DNA of 64,000 nt, taken from NCBI RefSeq assembly GCF_033954835.1, contig NZ_CP121471.1, forward strand, positions 1,116,001 to 1,180,000, in the 5' to 3' direction. The notes beneath the pieces were generated by a model, which searched no databases, was not told the DNA's origin, and saw only the letters and a program-made list of their open reading frames with translations. How positions within the stretch are numbered: the stretch's first letter is position 1; each line of letters starts with the position of its first letter. Below are positions 56,631-64,000 of the stretch, piece after piece. This DNA is from Thiorhodovibrio frisius (GTDB taxonomy: Bacteria; Pseudomonadota; Gammaproteobacteria; Chromatiales; Chromatiaceae). The position numbers were made by a program, and so were the translations under genes.

Positions 56631-57140
56631 CTATTTCTGCGCGATCTGCTCGTCAGAATCCAGGTGCTCTGTCTGTTGGCGACGATCATGCGCGAACTGA
56701 ACGGTGGGTAGAATCAATCTCGGCAGGTGCATCCGGGCACACTGGTTACTCAACAGCTCTCGCCAGTAAGGCCAAATATGGTAACTGGCGTTCTTGAGGG
56801 AGAATTCATCGATACAAGACTGCTCCAGCGTAGCAGTCATCTGATATTCGGCAATAAACTCGGCCTCTATCACCGCTCTTACGGCTAGCTCTTCGTTTTT
56901 TTTCTCTGGATCGATCCAACGCGCTCCCAGCCGAACAAACACTCGCAACAACTGGCTTTCGTCATCCAGGGCAGCCACGCTAGCCCGTTTAACCACGTGC
57001 ATTTGCTGGATGCTCAGGCGCTCAATCTCCGCCGAATACTTGGGGTCGAAATCTCCGATACAACTGGCAACCTGATCACGGACATAAACGTCCTGAATGT
57101 TCAGGTTGTCGATGGCCTTCTGTAAGCCGGTGCTGATCAT
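56631..57140 (-). CDS. SecB-like chaperone of a toxin-antitoxin-chaperone operon
   Basis: A 169-residue protein of SecB fold length. LLRVFVRLGARWIDPEKKNE (about 64-83) matches the SecB beta-strand region, and IWPYWRELLSNQCARMHLPR with LILPTVQF (about 122-149) matches the conserved SecB element FPYARE..S..vsRGtFPqLnLaPVNF. Its start overlaps the antitoxin stop by 4 nt. In known TAC operons such a chaperone binds the antitoxin tail and protects it. This is not the housekeeping SecB: it lacks the acidic QQQAGEG-type tail and has toxin-antitoxin neighbours. Confidence 0.85.
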   Translation of the reverse strand: MISTGLQKAIDNLNIQDVYVRDQVASCIGDFDPKYSAEIERLSIQQMHVVKRASVAALDDESQLLRVFVRLGARWIDPEKKNEELAVRAVIEAEFIAEYQMTATLEQSCIDEFSLKNASYHIWPYWRELLSNQCARMHLPRLILPTVQFAHDRRQQTEHLDSDEQIAQK

Positions 57141-57700
57141 GCTGCGTCCCTATATCTCACCTGCTGATCATTACTCGGTGTAGAGCTGGATACCAAACGC
57201 AGTGATCTGGCTTCGGTCGGGCGACGCGGCTCCGCCAGCCAGCTTTCAGCCTGCTGCCATTGCTCGCCAGCTAGTGCACGCTCAATGCCGGCCCGACGGC
57301 ACAATAGACCGAAGGCAGAAGGAAGCTCAGCCGCCAAACGCAGCAGCTTGTCCATGGCCTCGGTCTGGGCCACGTCATCACTTTCATACTTGGAGAAGGC
57401 CACCGGGCCACCACCGAAGACCTGTGCGGCCTCCGCCTGGCTCAGTCCCAGCTTCTCCCTGAGCGCCCGCACTTCGGCACCGATCAGCAAGCCGTCCACC
57501 CGCTTTTTGAAAGCGATCATCAGGCGTTTGTTGACGCGGGTCTGGGCGGCGTCTGCCTGCTCGCTACCGCAGGCATCACAGAGAGAGAAATGAAGACCCA
57601 ATTCTGTCGTCTGGCCTATATATTCCAAGGGATTCGTCCTGACTTCAGGGTGCAGGTTTCCTTCACCACAGATCGGGCACAGATTGCTTGAATCGCTCAT
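57137..57700 (-). CDS. MqsA-type antitoxin (zinc finger + HTH) with C-terminal extension
   Basis: A 187-residue antitoxin. An N-terminal YgiT-type zinc finger has Cys8, Cys11, Cys41 and Cys44 (CPIC...CDAC). The C-terminal Xre-like HTH (about 76-112) is LREKLGLSQAEAAQVFGGGP. About 45-50 further residues follow (from RAGIERALAGEQWQQAESWL to the end), longer than a plain MqsA. In TAC systems such a tail is the chaperone-addiction region. It lies 7 nt after the toxin gene and is coupled to the chaperone gene. Confidence 0.87.
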   Translation of the reverse strand: MSDSSNLCPICGEGNLHPEVRTNPLEYIGQTTELGLHFSLCDACGSEQADAAQTRVNKRLMIAFKKRVDGLLIGAEVRALREKLGLSQAEAAQVFGGGPVAFSKYESDDVAQTEAMDKLLRLAAELPSAFGLLCRRAGIERALAGEQWQQAESWLAEPRRPTEARSLRLVSSSTPSNDQQVRYRDAA

Positions 57701-58731: not shown

Positions 58732-59718
58732 TCAGCATGATTCGACGAAGCGGGCCAGTTCCTGGTCGACCGGCGCCATCCGCTGCTCGAGCGGACCGTG
58801 CAAGGCCAGGTAGGGGAGCTTGCGCAGCGCCAGGTCGGTTTTGACCTGGGCTTGCATCTCGCGACGATTGGCCGGGCCGGAGCGATCCCAGGTGTCGGCG
58901 TAGGCAATGTCGTCCTCGCACAGGAAGATCAGGTCGTAGCGCTGGGCGCATTCCGCAACCAGTTGGTCTAGTCGCGGCAGCGCCCTGCCGTGGTAGTAGC
59001 GGGCGAAGTGCCGCGTGGTGGATGCGTCGGTGTCGACGAACAGAAAGCGGTTGGCCTGCTCGGCCAGGCGGTCCTCCCGCTGGCGGTGCCCTTCGGCGAT
59101 CTCCACCAATTGCGTCGGGCTCAGGCGGCGCTGGCGCTGGTGTGCTTCCCAGTATTCTCGGCCATATTCTGGCATCCAGCAGGTGTGATGGCGCGCGGCC
59201 AGGGCCGCAGCCAGGGTGCTTTTGCCGGTGCTAGGGGCGCCGAGAAACACCACGCGGGTGATCAAGTCGCGATAAACCAGGGGTTCCAGGAATTCACGGT
59301 GTTGGTAGGGGGCGGCGCGGATTGCGGTGGCCGAGATGGGCACGCGGGTGCGTTCCGGGTCGATGCGACGGTCGATTGCGCCGAGGGCGCAGCTGACGTG
59401 TTTGCCATAGAACTCACTGGAGTAGAAGGCATCGACTCGGCGCTCGCCGAGCTGACCGAGGATGTAGGTTTCGTGCTGGCGCCGGATTTCGGGCGCATTG
59501 CTGACTTGCATGGGCCCGTCCCAGGCCTCGATGACCTCGACCTGGGGGTACAGGGCGCGAATCCACCCGGCCCGCACCGGCAGGGGAACCTTGGTGACGT
59601 CGGGGGCGTGGTAGATCATGGCCAGCACCCGGTCGTTTTCCGCCAAGGCGGTCTCGATGAGCAGTTGGTGGCCCCGGTGCAAGGGCGCGAACTTGCCCAG
59701 TAGCAGCCCGGTACTCAT
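58732..59718 (-). CDS. nadR: NadR-type NMN adenylyltransferase / ribosylnicotinamide kinase
   Basis: A 328-residue bifunctional enzyme without the N-terminal HTH of enterobacterial NadR. Nucleotidyltransferase domain: GKFAPLHRGHQLLIETA (HxGH at 14-17) and PISATAIR (127-134). Kinase domain: Walker A GAPSTGKS (160-167) and FLFVDTDASTTRHFARYY. It turns imported nicotinamide riboside into NMN and NAD. Start at 59718, overlapping the pnuC stop by 4 nt; a longer in-frame extension across pnuC is an artefact. Confidence 0.93.
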   Translation of the reverse strand: MSTGLLLGKFAPLHRGHQLLIETALAENDRVLAMIYHAPDVTKVPLPVRAGWIRALYPQVEVIEAWDGPMQVSNAPEIRRQHETYILGQLGERRVDAFYSSEFYGKHVSCALGAIDRRIDPERTRVPISATAIRAAPYQHREFLEPLVYRDLITRVVFLGAPSTGKSTLAAALAARHHTCWMPEYGREYWEAHQRQRRLSPTQLVEIAEGHRQREDRLAEQANRFLFVDTDASTTRHFARYYHGRALPRLDQLVAECAQRYDLIFLCEDDIAYADTWDRSGPANRREMQAQVKTDLALRKLPYLALHGPLEQRMAPVDQELARFVESC

Positions 59719-60296
59719 GCCGGTTGCGGCACCGCCTGCCGCTCGCGCTGGGATCTGTGCCAGGCGAGCAGTCCAAAAACAGCCATCACAAGAAAGGTTG
59801 CGTAGAGACCGGCGGTCAAGTAAAGGTCCTTGTGCCAATAGATGGCGATGGCGGCCAGGTCGACGGTAATCCAGAACAGCCAGGACTCCAGCTTCTTGCG
59901 CGCCAGCAGCCACTGCGCCACCAGGCTCGCCACCGTGGTGAAGGCGTCGGCGTAGGGCAAGGCGGCATCGGTCTGGGTCGCCATCAGGTGGCCCCAGAGC
60001 AGGCTGGCGACGATCACCAGCAGGGGCCAAGCGAACCGGCTGCCGCCCTGGAGCCGGCTGACCGCAAGCGCGCTGCGCTCCCGGCTGCCATGTAGCCACC
60101 AGTACCAACCGTAAAGCTGCATGACCACGTAGATGCCATGCAGCAGCATGTCCGAGTAAAGCTTGATCTGGTAAAAGATGAACAGGTACAGCACCACCTG
60201 CACCAACCCGGCAGGCCAGCACCAGATGTTCTGGCGAATGGTCAGCCAGACGCAGAGAAAGCCAAAGACGACCGCCGTTGCCTCAATGCCCGTCAT
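59715..60296 (-). CDS. pnuC: Nicotinamide riboside transporter PnuC
   Basis: A 193-residue membrane protein with seven hydrophobic segments. ENIWCWPAGLVQVVLY-type segment (here IRQNIWCWPAGLVQVVLYLF, about 21-40), YGWYWWLHG and a C-terminal WITVDLAAIAIYWHKDLYLT with FGLLAWHRSQ are family signatures. First gene of the pnuC-nadR operon. The upstream gap to the MoxR gene (60297-60430) shows no riboswitch that I can recognise. Confidence 0.94.
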   Translation of the reverse strand: MTGIEATAVVFGFLCVWLTIRQNIWCWPAGLVQVVLYLFIFYQIKLYSDMLLHGIYVVMQLYGWYWWLHGSRERSALAVSRLQGGSRFAWPLLVIVASLLWGHLMATQTDAALPYADAFTTVASLVAQWLLARKKLESWLFWITVDLAAIAIYWHKDLYLTAGLYATFLVMAVFGLLAWHRSQRERQAVPQPA

Positions 60297-60430
60297 GAAT
60301 TTAGGCTCATGATTTTCGGTTCATGATGTTAGGTTTCAGTTCGCCAAGAATGCCAATGGACGCAAATTGGATCGACACGCGCCACGGGCAAATTGTGCCA
60401 TAGTTGCGAGAGTCCTCCTGGAGACCGCTC

Positions 60431-62020
60431 ATGCGCCAACGCGACCGCTACGCCAAGATTTCCCAGTCGCCCACCCGGCCAGCCGCCGAGCGACCGCAGC
60501 ACGATTTCGACGTCGCTGACCTCTACCGCGGCCCGGTCGCCAGCAGCGAGCCGGCAACGGCTCAGGCCGATGAGCAGCCGCTCGACGAGAAATTGCGCCA
60601 GGCCTATTTCTGGATCGTCAATCACGCCATCATCTCGCCCTTCTACGACATCGAGTACAACGACGCGCCCCCAATGCGCTTCGACTTCGGCGACCGTAAG
60701 GTGGCGATCAATTTGCCTACCGACCAGAGTTACTCAAGTTACGCCCTGGCGCCGCTTTTGAACCTGGCGGTGCGGCGGCGCTGCCTGCTGGTGGGCGGGC
60801 CCGGTCGCGGCAAGACCGCCATCGCTATCCTGATGGGCGTGCTGGCCGGCTACAACTTGCACGAGATCCGCCGCGCCATCCAGCACGGCCAACCGCAGAT
60901 GACCATCGCCGATCTGCTCGGCAACCCGCTGCCGGCGACTCTTATCAACGCCCAATCCATGGACGAGGTCAAGATCGCCTGGCGCCGCTGGCTGTCGATG
61001 CGGGTCAAAATCATCGACGAGTACAACCGCATTCCCACCCGCACTCAGTCGGCCCTGCTCACCACCATGGCCGACAACTACGCCGAACTGTACGACCAAG
61101 TCTACGAGTGCCCGCCGGCGGCCTGGTACCTAACCGCCAACGACGACGCTGGCGGCGGCACCTACCAGGTCATTGAGGCCCTGCGCGACCGCATCGACAT
61201 TGTCGTCAAGGCGCTGCACTTCAACACGCGCTTTCTCAACGAGTTGCTGCTGCGCATTGAGGACGGCATCCAGCCCGAGCAGGTGGTGCCGGCGCAGATC
61301 ATCTTCAGCCCCGAGGAACTCGACCGGCTCGAGCGCGAGATCCTGGCGGTGGAGTTCCCGGCCCTGCTGCGCCGCCGGCTGGAGTTCTTCGCCAGTCACT
61401 TCGAGTTCTTTGAGCCCGCCGCCAACCAGTTCGAGTACATGACCAAGGACACGGTCAAGCTCTCAGGTATCGAGTTTAGCGCCTTGAACACCGAGGAGAC
61501 CGGCAAGAGCGCCCAGGTCGAGTTGGGTAGTCAGTCCCTGAACGGCTTTTCCGTGCGGGCGCTGATGACCTGCATTCACTTTATCAAGGCGATGGCCTAC
61601 TTTCGCGGCGATCACGCGGTGAGCTTCGAGGACATGCGCCAGATGATCCCCTTTGTCATGCACGACAAGCTGACCCAAAACCCGGATGCCCCTGCCTTCG
61701 AGCAAGACGGCCAGACCACCCTGCGTGTCGACCGGATCAGCTGGATTCGTGGCCTGTTTGACCGCTCCTGCCAGGAGTTCGACCGGCTCGGTCTCGAGCG
61801 GGACGACCCGGTGGCCGAGCTGGAGGCTGAGTTCGAGCGCGGCCTCGACGGGCTGACGGCGGCCGAGGTGCGCAAGCGCCTGGCCCGCATCGAGGGTGTG
61901 CTGCGCGACTGGACCAGAGGGCGCAAGCTTTACGGTCACATGTATGACGACATCCTCAAGCTTAAGTACCTGCATCAGCGCTACAGCAACTACCTGGGTT
62001 GGCTGAAGTGGCAGAAATGA
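60431..62020 (+). CDS. MoxR-type AAA+ ATPase
   Basis: A 529-residue ATPase. The disordered N-terminus (1-55) is followed by a domain with the Walker A GGPGRGKT (122-129), Walker B VKIIDE (192-197) and a LTANDDAGGG sensor-1 region. It then has a long C-terminal part (about 300-529) with helices not present in the short MoxR proteins. ATG at 60431 has a GGAG site. It opens an operon with ATGA-coupled genes. Such ATPases usually act as chaperones on partner vWA proteins. Function in this system unknown. Confidence 0.85.
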   Translation: MRQRDRYAKISQSPTRPAAERPQHDFDVADLYRGPVASSEPATAQADEQPLDEKLRQAYFWIVNHAIISPFYDIEYNDAPPMRFDFGDRKVAINLPTDQSYSSYALAPLLNLAVRRRCLLVGGPGRGKTAIAILMGVLAGYNLHEIRRAIQHGQPQMTIADLLGNPLPATLINAQSMDEVKIAWRRWLSMRVKIIDEYNRIPTRTQSALLTTMADNYAELYDQVYECPPAAWYLTANDDAGGGTYQVIEALRDRIDIVVKALHFNTRFLNELLLRIEDGIQPEQVVPAQIIFSPEELDRLEREILAVEFPALLRRRLEFFASHFEFFEPAANQFEYMTKDTVKLSGIEFSALNTEETGKSAQVELGSQSLNGFSVRALMTCIHFIKAMAYFRGDHAVSFEDMRQMIPFVMHDKLTQNPDAPAFEQDGQTTLRVDRISWIRGLFDRSCQEFDRLGLERDDPVAELEAEFERGLDGLTAAEVRKRLARIEGVLRDWTRGRKLYGHMYDDILKLKYLHQRYSNYLGWLKWQK

Positions 62021-63048
62021 CGGCACTGGCCGAGGCCCTGCTGCGCCGGCGGGACGACTACAACCAGCGGTTTCTGCGCGCCCGGTACCTGCAGCGGCGG
62101 CTGGCGCCGGATGATTTCCAGGATGTGTTGCGCCGCTATGCCGCCCCGGTCGCCGAAGGGCTGGCCGAGAGGACCAGCAGCGATGCCGAGCTGGACACCA
62201 TCGTTTCGGCTCTGTACGACCTCTGCCTGCAACTGACCGCTCAGGACCTGCTCGGCTCCCGTGCCCGTGTGCCCGTGCTTGCAGAGCTGTTCGACGAGCT
62301 GCTTCCCTGTCTGGCCGGTCTGATCGCCGAGCAACCCGAGCGGGTCTTGGTCGCGCTCTGCAATGCTGCCTACAACCTGGCGCTGGAACCGGCGGCGGAC
62401 CCGCGCTGCTGGATTGCCCGGCTGGTGGCGCTGGCACCGCGCCTGGCCTCGGTGGACGCCCTGCTGCTGGCCGGCCAGGTCGCTGCCTGGCGCTGCGGCA
62501 TGGCCCACTACCGCGAGAGTGCCTTGCAGGCGGCTCGCCAGCTGGAACCTGACCTGCTGGCCGCCTTGGTCGATCAGCCTCAGATTCAGAACGAGCCCCA
62601 GAGCGAGGCCCAGAATGAGAAAGCGGCCGAACGCCTGCTGGCCGCTCTGTCCGATCCCTGGTTTGATCCCGCCGCTCGTGTCGGCGAAAAACGTCTGCAG
62701 CGAGTCGGTCGGGTCGGCGGTTTCGTCGGCTTCGACGGCCCCTTCATCGAACCTCCCGAAGTGACCCGCTTCGGTGAGCGCATCTATGCGCTGGACAGCC
62801 AGCAGGCCTGGCTGCTGTTCGCCGACCGCTTTGGTCAAGTGCTGAAAGGGCAGGGCAGCGATCTGCCCGCCGGCGCACCGGACGATTCGACCCACTTCGA
62901 CATTGATACTGACGGCAGGGTCAGTTGCGGTAAGCACCGCGCCCGCTTTCCGGAACTGGCCGGCTGGCGCTCGGCGGCCTCCACCGAGCACAGCCTGGTG
63001 GTGACTCTGCCGCACAGTCACTATCTGTTTCTGGTGGCGTTGCGCTGA
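62017..63048 (+). CDS. Uncharacterised protein of the MoxR operon
   Basis: A 343-residue protein; start ATG at 62017 overlaps the ATPase stop (ATGA). The first 210 residues are helical (ARYLQRRLAPDDFQDVLRRY, AELDTIVSALYDLCLQL, RVLVALCNAAYNLALEP). After an acidic Gln/Glu linker (QIQNEPQSEAQNEKA) comes a small C-terminal domain (about 255-343) rich in Gly and beta strands (VGGFVGFDGPFIEPPE, SLVVTLPHSHYLFLVAL). No family recognised. Tight coupling on both sides indicates it is an obligate part of the system. Confidence 0.8.
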   Translation: MTALAEALLRRRDDYNQRFLRARYLQRRLAPDDFQDVLRRYAAPVAEGLAERTSSDAELDTIVSALYDLCLQLTAQDLLGSRARVPVLAELFDELLPCLAGLIAEQPERVLVALCNAAYNLALEPAADPRCWIARLVALAPRLASVDALLLAGQVAAWRCGMAHYRESALQAARQLEPDLLAALVDQPQIQNEPQSEAQNEKAAERLLAALSDPWFDPAARVGEKRLQRVGRVGGFVGFDGPFIEPPEVTRFGERIYALDSQQAWLLFADRFGQVLKGQGSDLPAGAPDDSTHFDIDTDGRVSCGKHRARFPELAGWRSAASTEHSLVVTLPHSHYLFLVALR

Positions 63049-64000
63049 TGCCGGGACGGGGTCGCCATCGTGCCGCTGACCTGCTGCCCGCCTGGCAGCA
63101 GGCCTGGCCCGCCGCGCTGGCGGCCTGGAGCCGCTTCACCCGACTGCCGGAACCGCGCTTCCTGCTCGATGAGGCGGCCGAGCAGGCCGAAGGGCTCAGT
63201 GGCAGCTTTGCCATGATCCGCCTCAACGACCACGCCGTGCTGGTCAGCTTGCGCCAGGTTGCCGAGCTGGGGCTCGAGCGGTTCGCCCGCGAGGTGCTGG
63301 CCCACGAAGTCGGCCACCATGTGCTGGCGCCGGCTGATCTGGCCGACAACGGCCGCCTGCTGGCACGCTTGCGTGCTGCGCTGCCGGGGCTGCAAGAGCA
63401 CGCCGCTTTCGTCGGCAACCTCTGCACCGATCTTTTGATCAACGACCGCTTGGCTCGCAGCGCCGAACTAGACTTGGCCGGTCTCTATCAGGCCCTTAAG
63501 CCCAAGGACAAACCGGGCAAGCTGTGGAGCCTGTACATGCGCATCTACGAGCAGCTCTGGTCGTTGCCGAGCGGTACCCTGACCCAGGGCCGGCTCGACC
63601 CGGCCCTGCGCGCCGATGCTGCCCTTGGCGCCCGCCTCGTGCGGGTCTATGCCCGCGACTGGCTGAACGGCGCCGGCCGCTTCGCCTCGCTGCTCTACCC
63701 CTATCTGGCGACAGAGCAGGCCGAGATGCAAAACGGCTTTGGCAATCTGCTCGACGCCACCGACGCCGGTAGCGGCGAGGTGGTGCCCGACGGCTTGGCC
63801 GAGATCGACGAGGCCGAGGTGACCGGCAGCCTCGATCCTCGCAACGACCCCGAGTTGTCCGGTGTCGATCAGCCTGGCGATGCTGCCGAACCCGGTGCAT
63901 CGAGCGGGCGCGAGACTGTCGGCGGGCGCAAGCAGCGCTACCGTGGTCCGTTGGACTACACCGAGCTGATGGAAGCGGCCGGGGTCAAGGTTCCGCGCAA
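63048..64000 (+). CDS. HExxH putative metallopeptidase of the MoxR operon (3' end outside window)
   Basis: An open frame of at least 317 codons that reaches the window edge. The start ATG overlaps the previous stop (TGATG). HEVGH at residues 86-90 is a zinc-metallopeptidase type motif followed by LCTDLLINDRLA. An acidic, Pro-rich segment (about 240-290) follows. Proteins with this front part usually carry a vWA domain at the C-terminus; if so it lies beyond 64000. Partial. Confidence 0.78.
   Translation, partial: MPGRGRHRAADLLPAWQQAWPAALAAWSRFTRLPEPRFLLDEAAEQAEGLSGSFAMIRLNDHAVLVSLRQVAELGLERFAREVLAHEVGHHVLAPADLADNGRLLARLRAALPGLQEHAAFVGNLCTDLLINDRLARSAELDLAGLYQALKPKDKPGKLWSLYMRIYEQLWSLPSGTLTQGRLDPALRADAALGARLVRVYARDWLNGAGRFASLLYPYLATEQAEMQNGFGNLLDATDAGSGEVVPDGLAEIDEAEVTGSLDPRNDPELSGVDQPGDAAEPGASSGRETVGGRKQRYRGPLDYTELMEAAGVKVPR

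Follow-up and report, generated by a model that had tools for sequence, protein, structure and literature searches.

Which task does a MoxR-type ATPase fulfil when it is encoded directly beside genes for the salvage of nicotinamide adenine dinucleotide (NAD)? This question is raised by the 3′ end of the window analysed here, a stretch of 64,000 nucleotides from the genome of Thiorhodovibrio frisius (contig NZ_CP121471.1; G000:C1:1116001-1180000 in our numbering). An earlier note, made from this sequence alone, described three tightly packed genes, named A, B and C in the following, and interpreted them as a candidate MoxR-vWA system. The three coupled genes are confirmed, and an extension of the sequence (L002, G000:C1:1174001-1192000), which covers the remainder of the operon, adds two genes, D and E, that were missed because of the window edge. 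With a probability of roughly 0.4, A to E constitute a single accessory system of five parts that is coupled to the salvage of NAD, and the interpretation given in the earlier note is partly supported.

For comparison, one genome per species was scanned with patterns derived from protein A. The scan yielded 131 relatives, of which 80 were kept and, together with L002, resulted in a set of 81 loci. Counts of neighbouring genes refer to a set free of shadow open reading frames and replace earlier, inflated counts. Alignments comprised 77 sequences of A, 52 of C and 39 of E, and the tree of A was built by a quick method.

Products of the five genes

Genes A, B and C each start with ATG and are tightly coupled (Table 1). 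The 4-nt or 3-nt overlaps described previously hold for A/B, with a 4-nt ATGA overlap, and not for B/C, where a single base is shared (TGATG). C/D likewise shows a 4-nt ATGA overlap, and E starts 2 nt after D. With start codons picked by script, junctions of at most 30 nt were observed in the measurable cases among the fetched loci for A/B (65/70), B/C (58/63), C/D (45/57) and D/E (43/49), so this coupling is more than chance.

Protein A matches Pfam AAA_3 (32.4 bits) and AAA_lid_2 (27.5 bits), both over the cut-off. Its Walker A motif GGPGRGKT is identical in all aligned sequences, and the Walker B stretch, IIDEYN in this protein, is found as [KR][IV][IV]DEYNRI in 77/77, in agreement with the ATPase motifs recognized before. 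A further stretch, AL[RKQS]DRID, a candidate for the arginine finger expected before strand 5, is conserved in 77/77 as well, and 121 of the 529 positions are invariant. By sequence, A is an intact MoxR AAA+ ATPase.

Protein B has no recognizable family, as already stated in the earlier note: no Pfam family was found at E <= 1 and no match in PADLOC, and the single NCBIfam match is at chance level (E 0.1). The helical front and beta-rich end expected from the sequence reappear in a confident AlphaFold2 model (mean predicted local distance difference test, pLDDT, 96.4) in which a beta domain comes after twelve helices. Foldseek gave no match of this model to the PDB at E <= 0.001, and PDB sequence profiles gave nothing beyond chance-level matches for B and D.

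Protein C carries HEVGHH at residue 86 followed by an acidic linker, both noticed before in the part that runs off the window. The vWA domain predicted to follow 3′ of position 64000 is present on the extension, with the metal ion-dependent adhesion site (MIDAS) motif DCSGS at residue 407, and the protein ends 180 residues past the start of this motif. H86, E87, H90, D407, S409 and S411 are invariant in 52/52 sequences, the MIDAS motif being DCSGS in 50 and DSSGS in two. The invariant D128, within NLxxDLLIND, may plausibly contribute the third ligand of zinc. Neither domain was found by Pfam models. In an hhalign comparison with ten DUF2201 proteins the vWA domain alone aligned (probability 58, E 1e-4), so that the zincin label draws on the motif and the shared layout; the profile of C gave, in the PDB, a designed protein (E 0.0049) and a vWA protein (E 0.027). 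By sequence, C is an intact protein with a zincin motif and a vWA domain.

For D, a confident AlphaFold2 model (mean pLDDT 95.5) consists of helices, of which the C-terminal one is long and has a conserved end. Foldseek detected no match to the PDB at E <= 0.001, nothing convincing was obtained from Pfam, NCBIfam or PADLOC, and there is no serine or cysteine among the invariant or nearly invariant columns. E matches Pfam AMP-binding (32.4 bits, cut-off 29.9), and the adenylation motifs A3, A5 and A7 are conserved. Its best NCBIfam match is DVU_1553 with 73.5 bits (cut-off 300), and with 28.7 bits against a cut-off of 646.3 for TIGR02155 it is not classified as a phenylacetate-CoA (coenzyme A) ligase proper. 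By its motifs, E belongs to the adenylating enzymes, which activate acids at the expense of ATP.

Table 1. Genes of the operon and the divergent neighbours; positions refer to the window unless preceded by L002.
Feature	Position	Strand	Basis
nadR-like, 328 aa, HxGH nucleotidyltransferase + AAA_28 kinase (predicted)	58732..59718	-	Pfam domains, recurrent operon partner
pnuC, 193 aa, nicotinamide riboside/nicotinamide mononucleotide (NMN) transporter family (predicted)	59715..60296	-	Pfam NMN_transporter, recurrent operon partner
Gene A, MoxR-type AAA+ ATPase, 529 aa	60431..62020	+	AAA_3, AAA_lid_2, Walker A
Gene B, unmatched family, 343 aa	62017..63048	+	helical 1-211 + beta 227-343, AlphaFold2 model
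Gene C, zincin-like HExGHH + acidic linker + vWA, 587 aa	63048..64000, on to L002:6811	+	motifs
Gene D, all-helical, 200 aa	L002:6808-7410, beyond window		AlphaFold2 model
Gene E, PaaK-like AMP-forming ligase, 468 aa	L002:7413-8819, beyond window		Pfam AMP-binding

Conservation and spread of the operon

A comparison of gene neighbourhoods, as proposed in the earlier note, revealed the order A-B-C-D-E on one strand in 50 of the 81 loci, which are spread over roughly twelve phyla. The carriers are labelled as Acidobacteriota, Myxococcota, Spirochaetota, Bacteroidota, Verrucomicrobiota, Planctomycetota and Nitrospinota as well as desulfobacteria, Pseudomonadota, Obscuribacterales, Riflebacteria and others. 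B directly follows A in 78 loci, and the contigs of the other three stop within 860 nt. Among the 31 loci without the full order, 19 reach a contig edge before E and 12 represent real departures, such as D-E being divergent in L039 and L041 or E being located ahead of A in L052.

Gene E was sought in 12 genomes, namely 11 without E in the fetched locus and, as a check, one (L023) with E in the operon, and it was found in all of them. In nine of the 11 it is located on another contig and in two on the same contig beyond the fetched stretch, 0.14 kb past D in L016 and about 10 kb past D in L047. L016 also encodes a protein of 736 aa without Pfam match directly after C and before the distant D (L016:9157-11364). 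Judged from these sequences, the five genes form a conserved operon, and where the operon is split they persist as a set within the genome.

The spread near the source organism is patchy. C was found in four of 55 relatives of the source genome, of which three share a genus and the fourth belongs to a different family, and is absent from 31 genomes of the same family outside the source genus. A survey of 398 Pseudomonadota genomes, in which the searches for C and D were limited to scoring a few preliminary candidates in each genome, detected C in three and D in the same three. Phyla are mixed in the tree of A, with starred branches that unite, for example, Riflebacteria and Bacteroidota or Holophagae and Planctomycetales, and horizontal transfer is a likely cause. 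L057 and L058, metagenome-assembled genomes (MAGs) labelled as Chloroflexota and Alphaproteobacteria, encode near-identical A proteins, and this may reflect either a recent transfer or a binning error. The species label of another MAG, L021, looks doubtful since it groups with Betaproteobacteria. A plasmid or phage carrier was considered and rejected: C, the only one of the five proteins searched there, has no match at E <= 1e-5 in 50,697 phage records and none on plasmids.

Association with NAD salvage or a radical-SAM pair

Upstream of A, at a distance of 134 bp, lie the divergent genes pnuC and nadR. An NAD link had been rated as only a possibility on account of this orientation, an underestimate given that the link recurs across phyla in several arrangements. 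The nadR product matches Pfam AAA_28 (119 bits) and CTP_transf_like (21.2 bits, cut-off 21), and operon-linked NadR proteins keep both domains together with the HxGH and P-loop residues; the score against TIGR01526, 177.5 bits, does not reach the family cut-off of 341.15. PnuC is a predicted transporter (Pfam NMN_transporter, 192.6 bits, cut-off 27.3).

NadR is encoded within the fetched locus in 37/81 cases, 24 of them outside Flavobacterium. It is located divergently upstream in L002 and L032 and co-directionally upstream in Flavobacterium and L057. Downstream of E it is found in L013 and, accompanied by pnuC, in L031 and L062, and convergently downstream in L003 and L030; the downstream frames overlap in L013 and L062, and pnuC of L031 begins about 54 nt past E. 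In the L011 genome E adjoins convergent nadR-pnuC genes on a contig (L098) other than that of A-B-C. NadR is split into two pieces in the L026 genome, and a reported stop occurs in two further matches (L101, L103). L028 (13415-18568) harbors two D-E pairs in a row with a radical-SAM gene between them, radical-SAM denoting radical S-adenosylmethionine enzymes, and a half-length NadR after the second pair.

Co-occurrence was also evident on the scale of genomes. Among the 55 relatives, five carry NadR (TIGR01526), four with C, each at most 4 kb from C, and one other (Fisher 1.5e-5, although three are congeners). In the 398 Pseudomonadota genomes the NadR profile matched in 51, in 23 with the kinase half alone and in 28 over most of the protein, and all three C-bearing genomes belong to these 28, with NadR at most 4 kb from C. 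The arrangements suggest that the pnuC-nadR neighbour is not incidental.

Eight loci carry a radical-SAM gene pair after E, where others carry pnuC-nadR. In L028 only the first gene of the pair is present, and NadR is kept in this genome as the nucleotidyltransferase half only (positions 2-152). For a closer view, 40 operon-bearing genomes were searched for the second radical-SAM protein of the pair (radSAM2), and sets of 24 and 18 genomes, with two in both, for NadR. Ten of the 40 possess radSAM2 and none of these ten has NadR, while NadR is present in 29 of the 30 without radSAM2. The NadR-negative genome of L040 was then found to have radSAM2 0.7 kb from E. In L065, the operon and its radical-SAM pair are framed by genes that look ThiS-like and ThiG-like by eye, in a stretch that extends from 307 nt ahead of the A start to 9059 nt behind it. 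In most of the genomes examined, A to E are accompanied by NadR, often with PnuC and often beside E, and in other lineages by the radical-SAM pair.

The further surroundings of the source operon were inspected by eye. An acyl-CoA synthetase-like gene lies on the opposite strand downstream of E, and 3.6 kb past E a DraT-like protein is encoded (dinitrogenase reductase ADP-ribosyltransferase, an NAD user; L002:12424-13317). Toxin-antitoxin-like genes flank the region, with an MqsA-like antitoxin at 57137-57700 of the window and a VapBC-like pair at L002:14207-15012. The divergent intergenic region between pnuC and A (window 60296-60430) contains three TCATGA palindromes near pnuC, which were rejected as regulatory elements: they are not kept in two congeners and are probably due to chance. 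A riboswitch link was dropped, as an Rfam search of seven loci with gathering thresholds gave no riboswitch.

Possible functions and comparison with known systems

The reading of A to E as one system is based on the conserved order and junctions, the intact active sites of A, C and E, the recovery of E in 11/11 genomes in which the fetched locus had none, and the co-occurrence of C and D. The tie to NAD salvage draws on NadR in the fetched loci, E beside nadR-pnuC in L011, the co-occurrence among the 55 relatives, and the either-or distribution of NadR and radSAM2. In MoxR-vWA pairs, according to parts of PMC7159879, the vWA protein usually grips a client that is remodelled with ATP, often for metal insertion or enzyme assembly. 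Because the metal-site motif of C is intact and E is a constant partner, A-B-C is read as an assembly machine for a pathway that depends on D and E. A would form the ring with B as adaptor, the vWA domain of C would grip the client, and the metal site of C might process or metallate it. The likeliest client would be the D-E ligase or an enzyme taking its product, by analogy to the MoxR-vWA pairs of metal clusters and chelatases. E may activate a small carboxylate as acyl-adenylate, NadR (above all its nucleotidyltransferase half) and PnuC could supply or recycle a pyridine nucleotide consumed by the pathway, and in genomes lacking NadR the radical-SAM pair could provide an equivalent moiety.

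Several points weigh against this reading. The A-derived patterns are biased towards closer relatives, Flavobacterium accounts for 13 of the 80 loci, and many loci are MAGs. C is not nearby in the uncut loci L018, L026 and L055, as far as the fetched stretch extends. Operon-linked and ordinary NadR are not separated by the profile (G034 reaches 443 bits without C), and the background rate of NadR is known for Pseudomonadota only. Of the 29 genomes with NadR, 11 encode it apart from the operon, on a different contig; 17 have it inside the fetched locus, and in one (L047) it shares the operon contig and lies about 6.5 kb beyond D. The genome of L045 has neither NadR nor radSAM2. Finally, the switch between NadR and the radical-SAM pair amounts to three changes on the best tree of which the starred branches force only one, and several independent switches are not shown by this tree. 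With so few forced switches, the Fisher value of 1.3e-8 for the either-or distribution is not independent evidence, and much of the pattern may be due to common descent.

In a more specific version, which we regard as rather improbable, A to E and their partner, either NadR or the radical-SAM pair, would make an undescribed cofactor from a pyridine nucleotide and insert it. E would adenylate or acylate a moiety, and the MoxR-zincin-vWA machine would insert this moiety or its metal into a client enzyme. The nickel-pincer nucleotide is an example of a cofactor that derives from an NAD precursor.

An unlikely rival is a MoxR-vWA conflict system, acting against phages or at a stress threshold, in which sensing and remodelling would fall to A-C, the effector would be E or an NAD-active partner, and NadR/PnuC would restore NAD. 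The patchy spread of C among relatives fits such a role. The best evidence for it is provided by large fusion proteins encoded upstream of A in L011, L017, L021, L022, L027, L033, L038 and L046, since both fusions scanned contain TCAD9, in L021 (6186-8483) with isochorismatase and DSP phosphatase and in L017 (6094-8757) with Nudix; TCAD9 is described in a part of PMC10910872 as associated with vWA-MoxR-VMAP systems. Against it, PADLOC 2.0.0 gave only P-loop-length matches for A (E >= 0.013) and none for B to E, so that a PADLOC-known anti-phage system is rejected, and C, the protein searched there, has no phage or plasmid match. The location of E on another contig in nine of 11 genomes is unusual for a defence cassette, A is strongly conserved over its aligned sequences, and a hypervariable effector was not seen.

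About equally unlikely is a general chaperone for proteostasis or complex assembly, similar to RavA-ViaA or DUF2201 systems, to which D-E and pnuC-nadR would be co-inherited passengers. MoxR-vWA pairs often assemble enzymes, as passages of PMC7159879 describe, and C resembles DUF2201 proteins in having the zincin part ahead of the vWA domain; the source genome encodes a DUF2201 protein elsewhere. Passengers, however, would not be expected to persist in several gene orders, and E is present in every tested genome in which the fetched locus had none, while D is confined to C-bearing genomes. Still less likely is a protein-modifying system, with LuxE-like or F390-synthetase-like chemistry as the model, in which E would attach an acyl group or AMP to a protein, D would be a carrier or scaffold, and A-C would expose or release the target: the adenylation motifs of E, its distance from the CoA-ligase equivalogs and the conserved end of the long helix of D fit it, but D offers no serine or cysteine among its conserved columns, no carrier domain was found in the Pfam scan, and NadR and the radical-SAM pair are not explained by this reading alone.

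The accessory system tied to NAD salvage is our favoured reading, and the five-gene set is apparently undescribed. In the open-licence literature of PubMed Central, we found no paper joining MoxR with nadR and pnuC, none on MoxR and vWA with phenylacetate-CoA ligase or AMP-binding, and none joining nadR, pnuC and phenylacetate-CoA ligase, so that in those papers NAD salvage is not connected with a MoxR-vWA machine and a ligase that activates acids. Five genes kept across about a dozen phyla, two of them (B and D) with neither a library family nor a Foldseek fold, represent a sizeable piece of unexplained biology. The alternation of NadR and radical-SAM pair provides a handle on the chemistry, and the named Flavobacterium isolates among the carriers, such as Flavobacterium saccharophilum DSM 1811 (L073), open the system to testing.

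Among known systems, the MoxR-vWA ternary conflict systems (Kaur et al. 2020, PMC7159879, as described in part of that article) share with the operon a MoxR ATPase, an adjoining vWA protein and a third protein, and TCAD9 occurs in the two scanned upstream proteins; the main text of that article does not mention NadR, isochorismatase or TCAD. The operon differs by the additional D and E; VMAP, iSTAND, FtsH or propeller parts were not found in it, effector variability was not seen, and the membership suggested in the earlier note was not supported. The VMAP type was rejected on the missing Pfam family and PDB match of B. For the iSTAND type, the model of B shows helices and then beta strands with no Pfam STAND match, the published iSTAND profile not having been run. 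For the FtsH type, none of A to E is FtsH, and the P-loop is GGPGRGKT instead of the frequent GXXXTAKS. The beta-propeller type, with about four blades C-terminal to vWA, does not fit a protein C that ends so soon after its MIDAS motif.

DUF2201_N/DUF2201 proteins resemble C in their N-terminal HExxH domain and C-terminal vWA domain, and in L160 a MoxR-like gene adjoins such a protein (by eye). In contrast, PF13203 and the DUF2201 vWA model miss C, only the vWA domain is aligned by profile, and DUF2201_N is present in 17/28 relatives as compared to C in 4/55. A pair of MoxR and a metallopeptidase-vWA protein in jumbo phages, described in part of PMC7824862, resembles A and C in having the metallopeptidase N-terminal to vWA and MoxR beside it; that pair is proposed there to act in virion assembly, whereas C has no match among the phage records. 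With the AMP-dependent CoA ligases of the PaaK and DVU_1553 families E shares the AMP-binding domain, with scores far under both cut-offs. The salvage of nicotinamide riboside by NadR and PnuC is a further point of comparison: the domains and active-site residues of NadR and the score of PnuC correspond, while the operon NadR stays under the TIGR01526 cut-off, is linked to A-E, and gives way where the radical-SAM pair is present.

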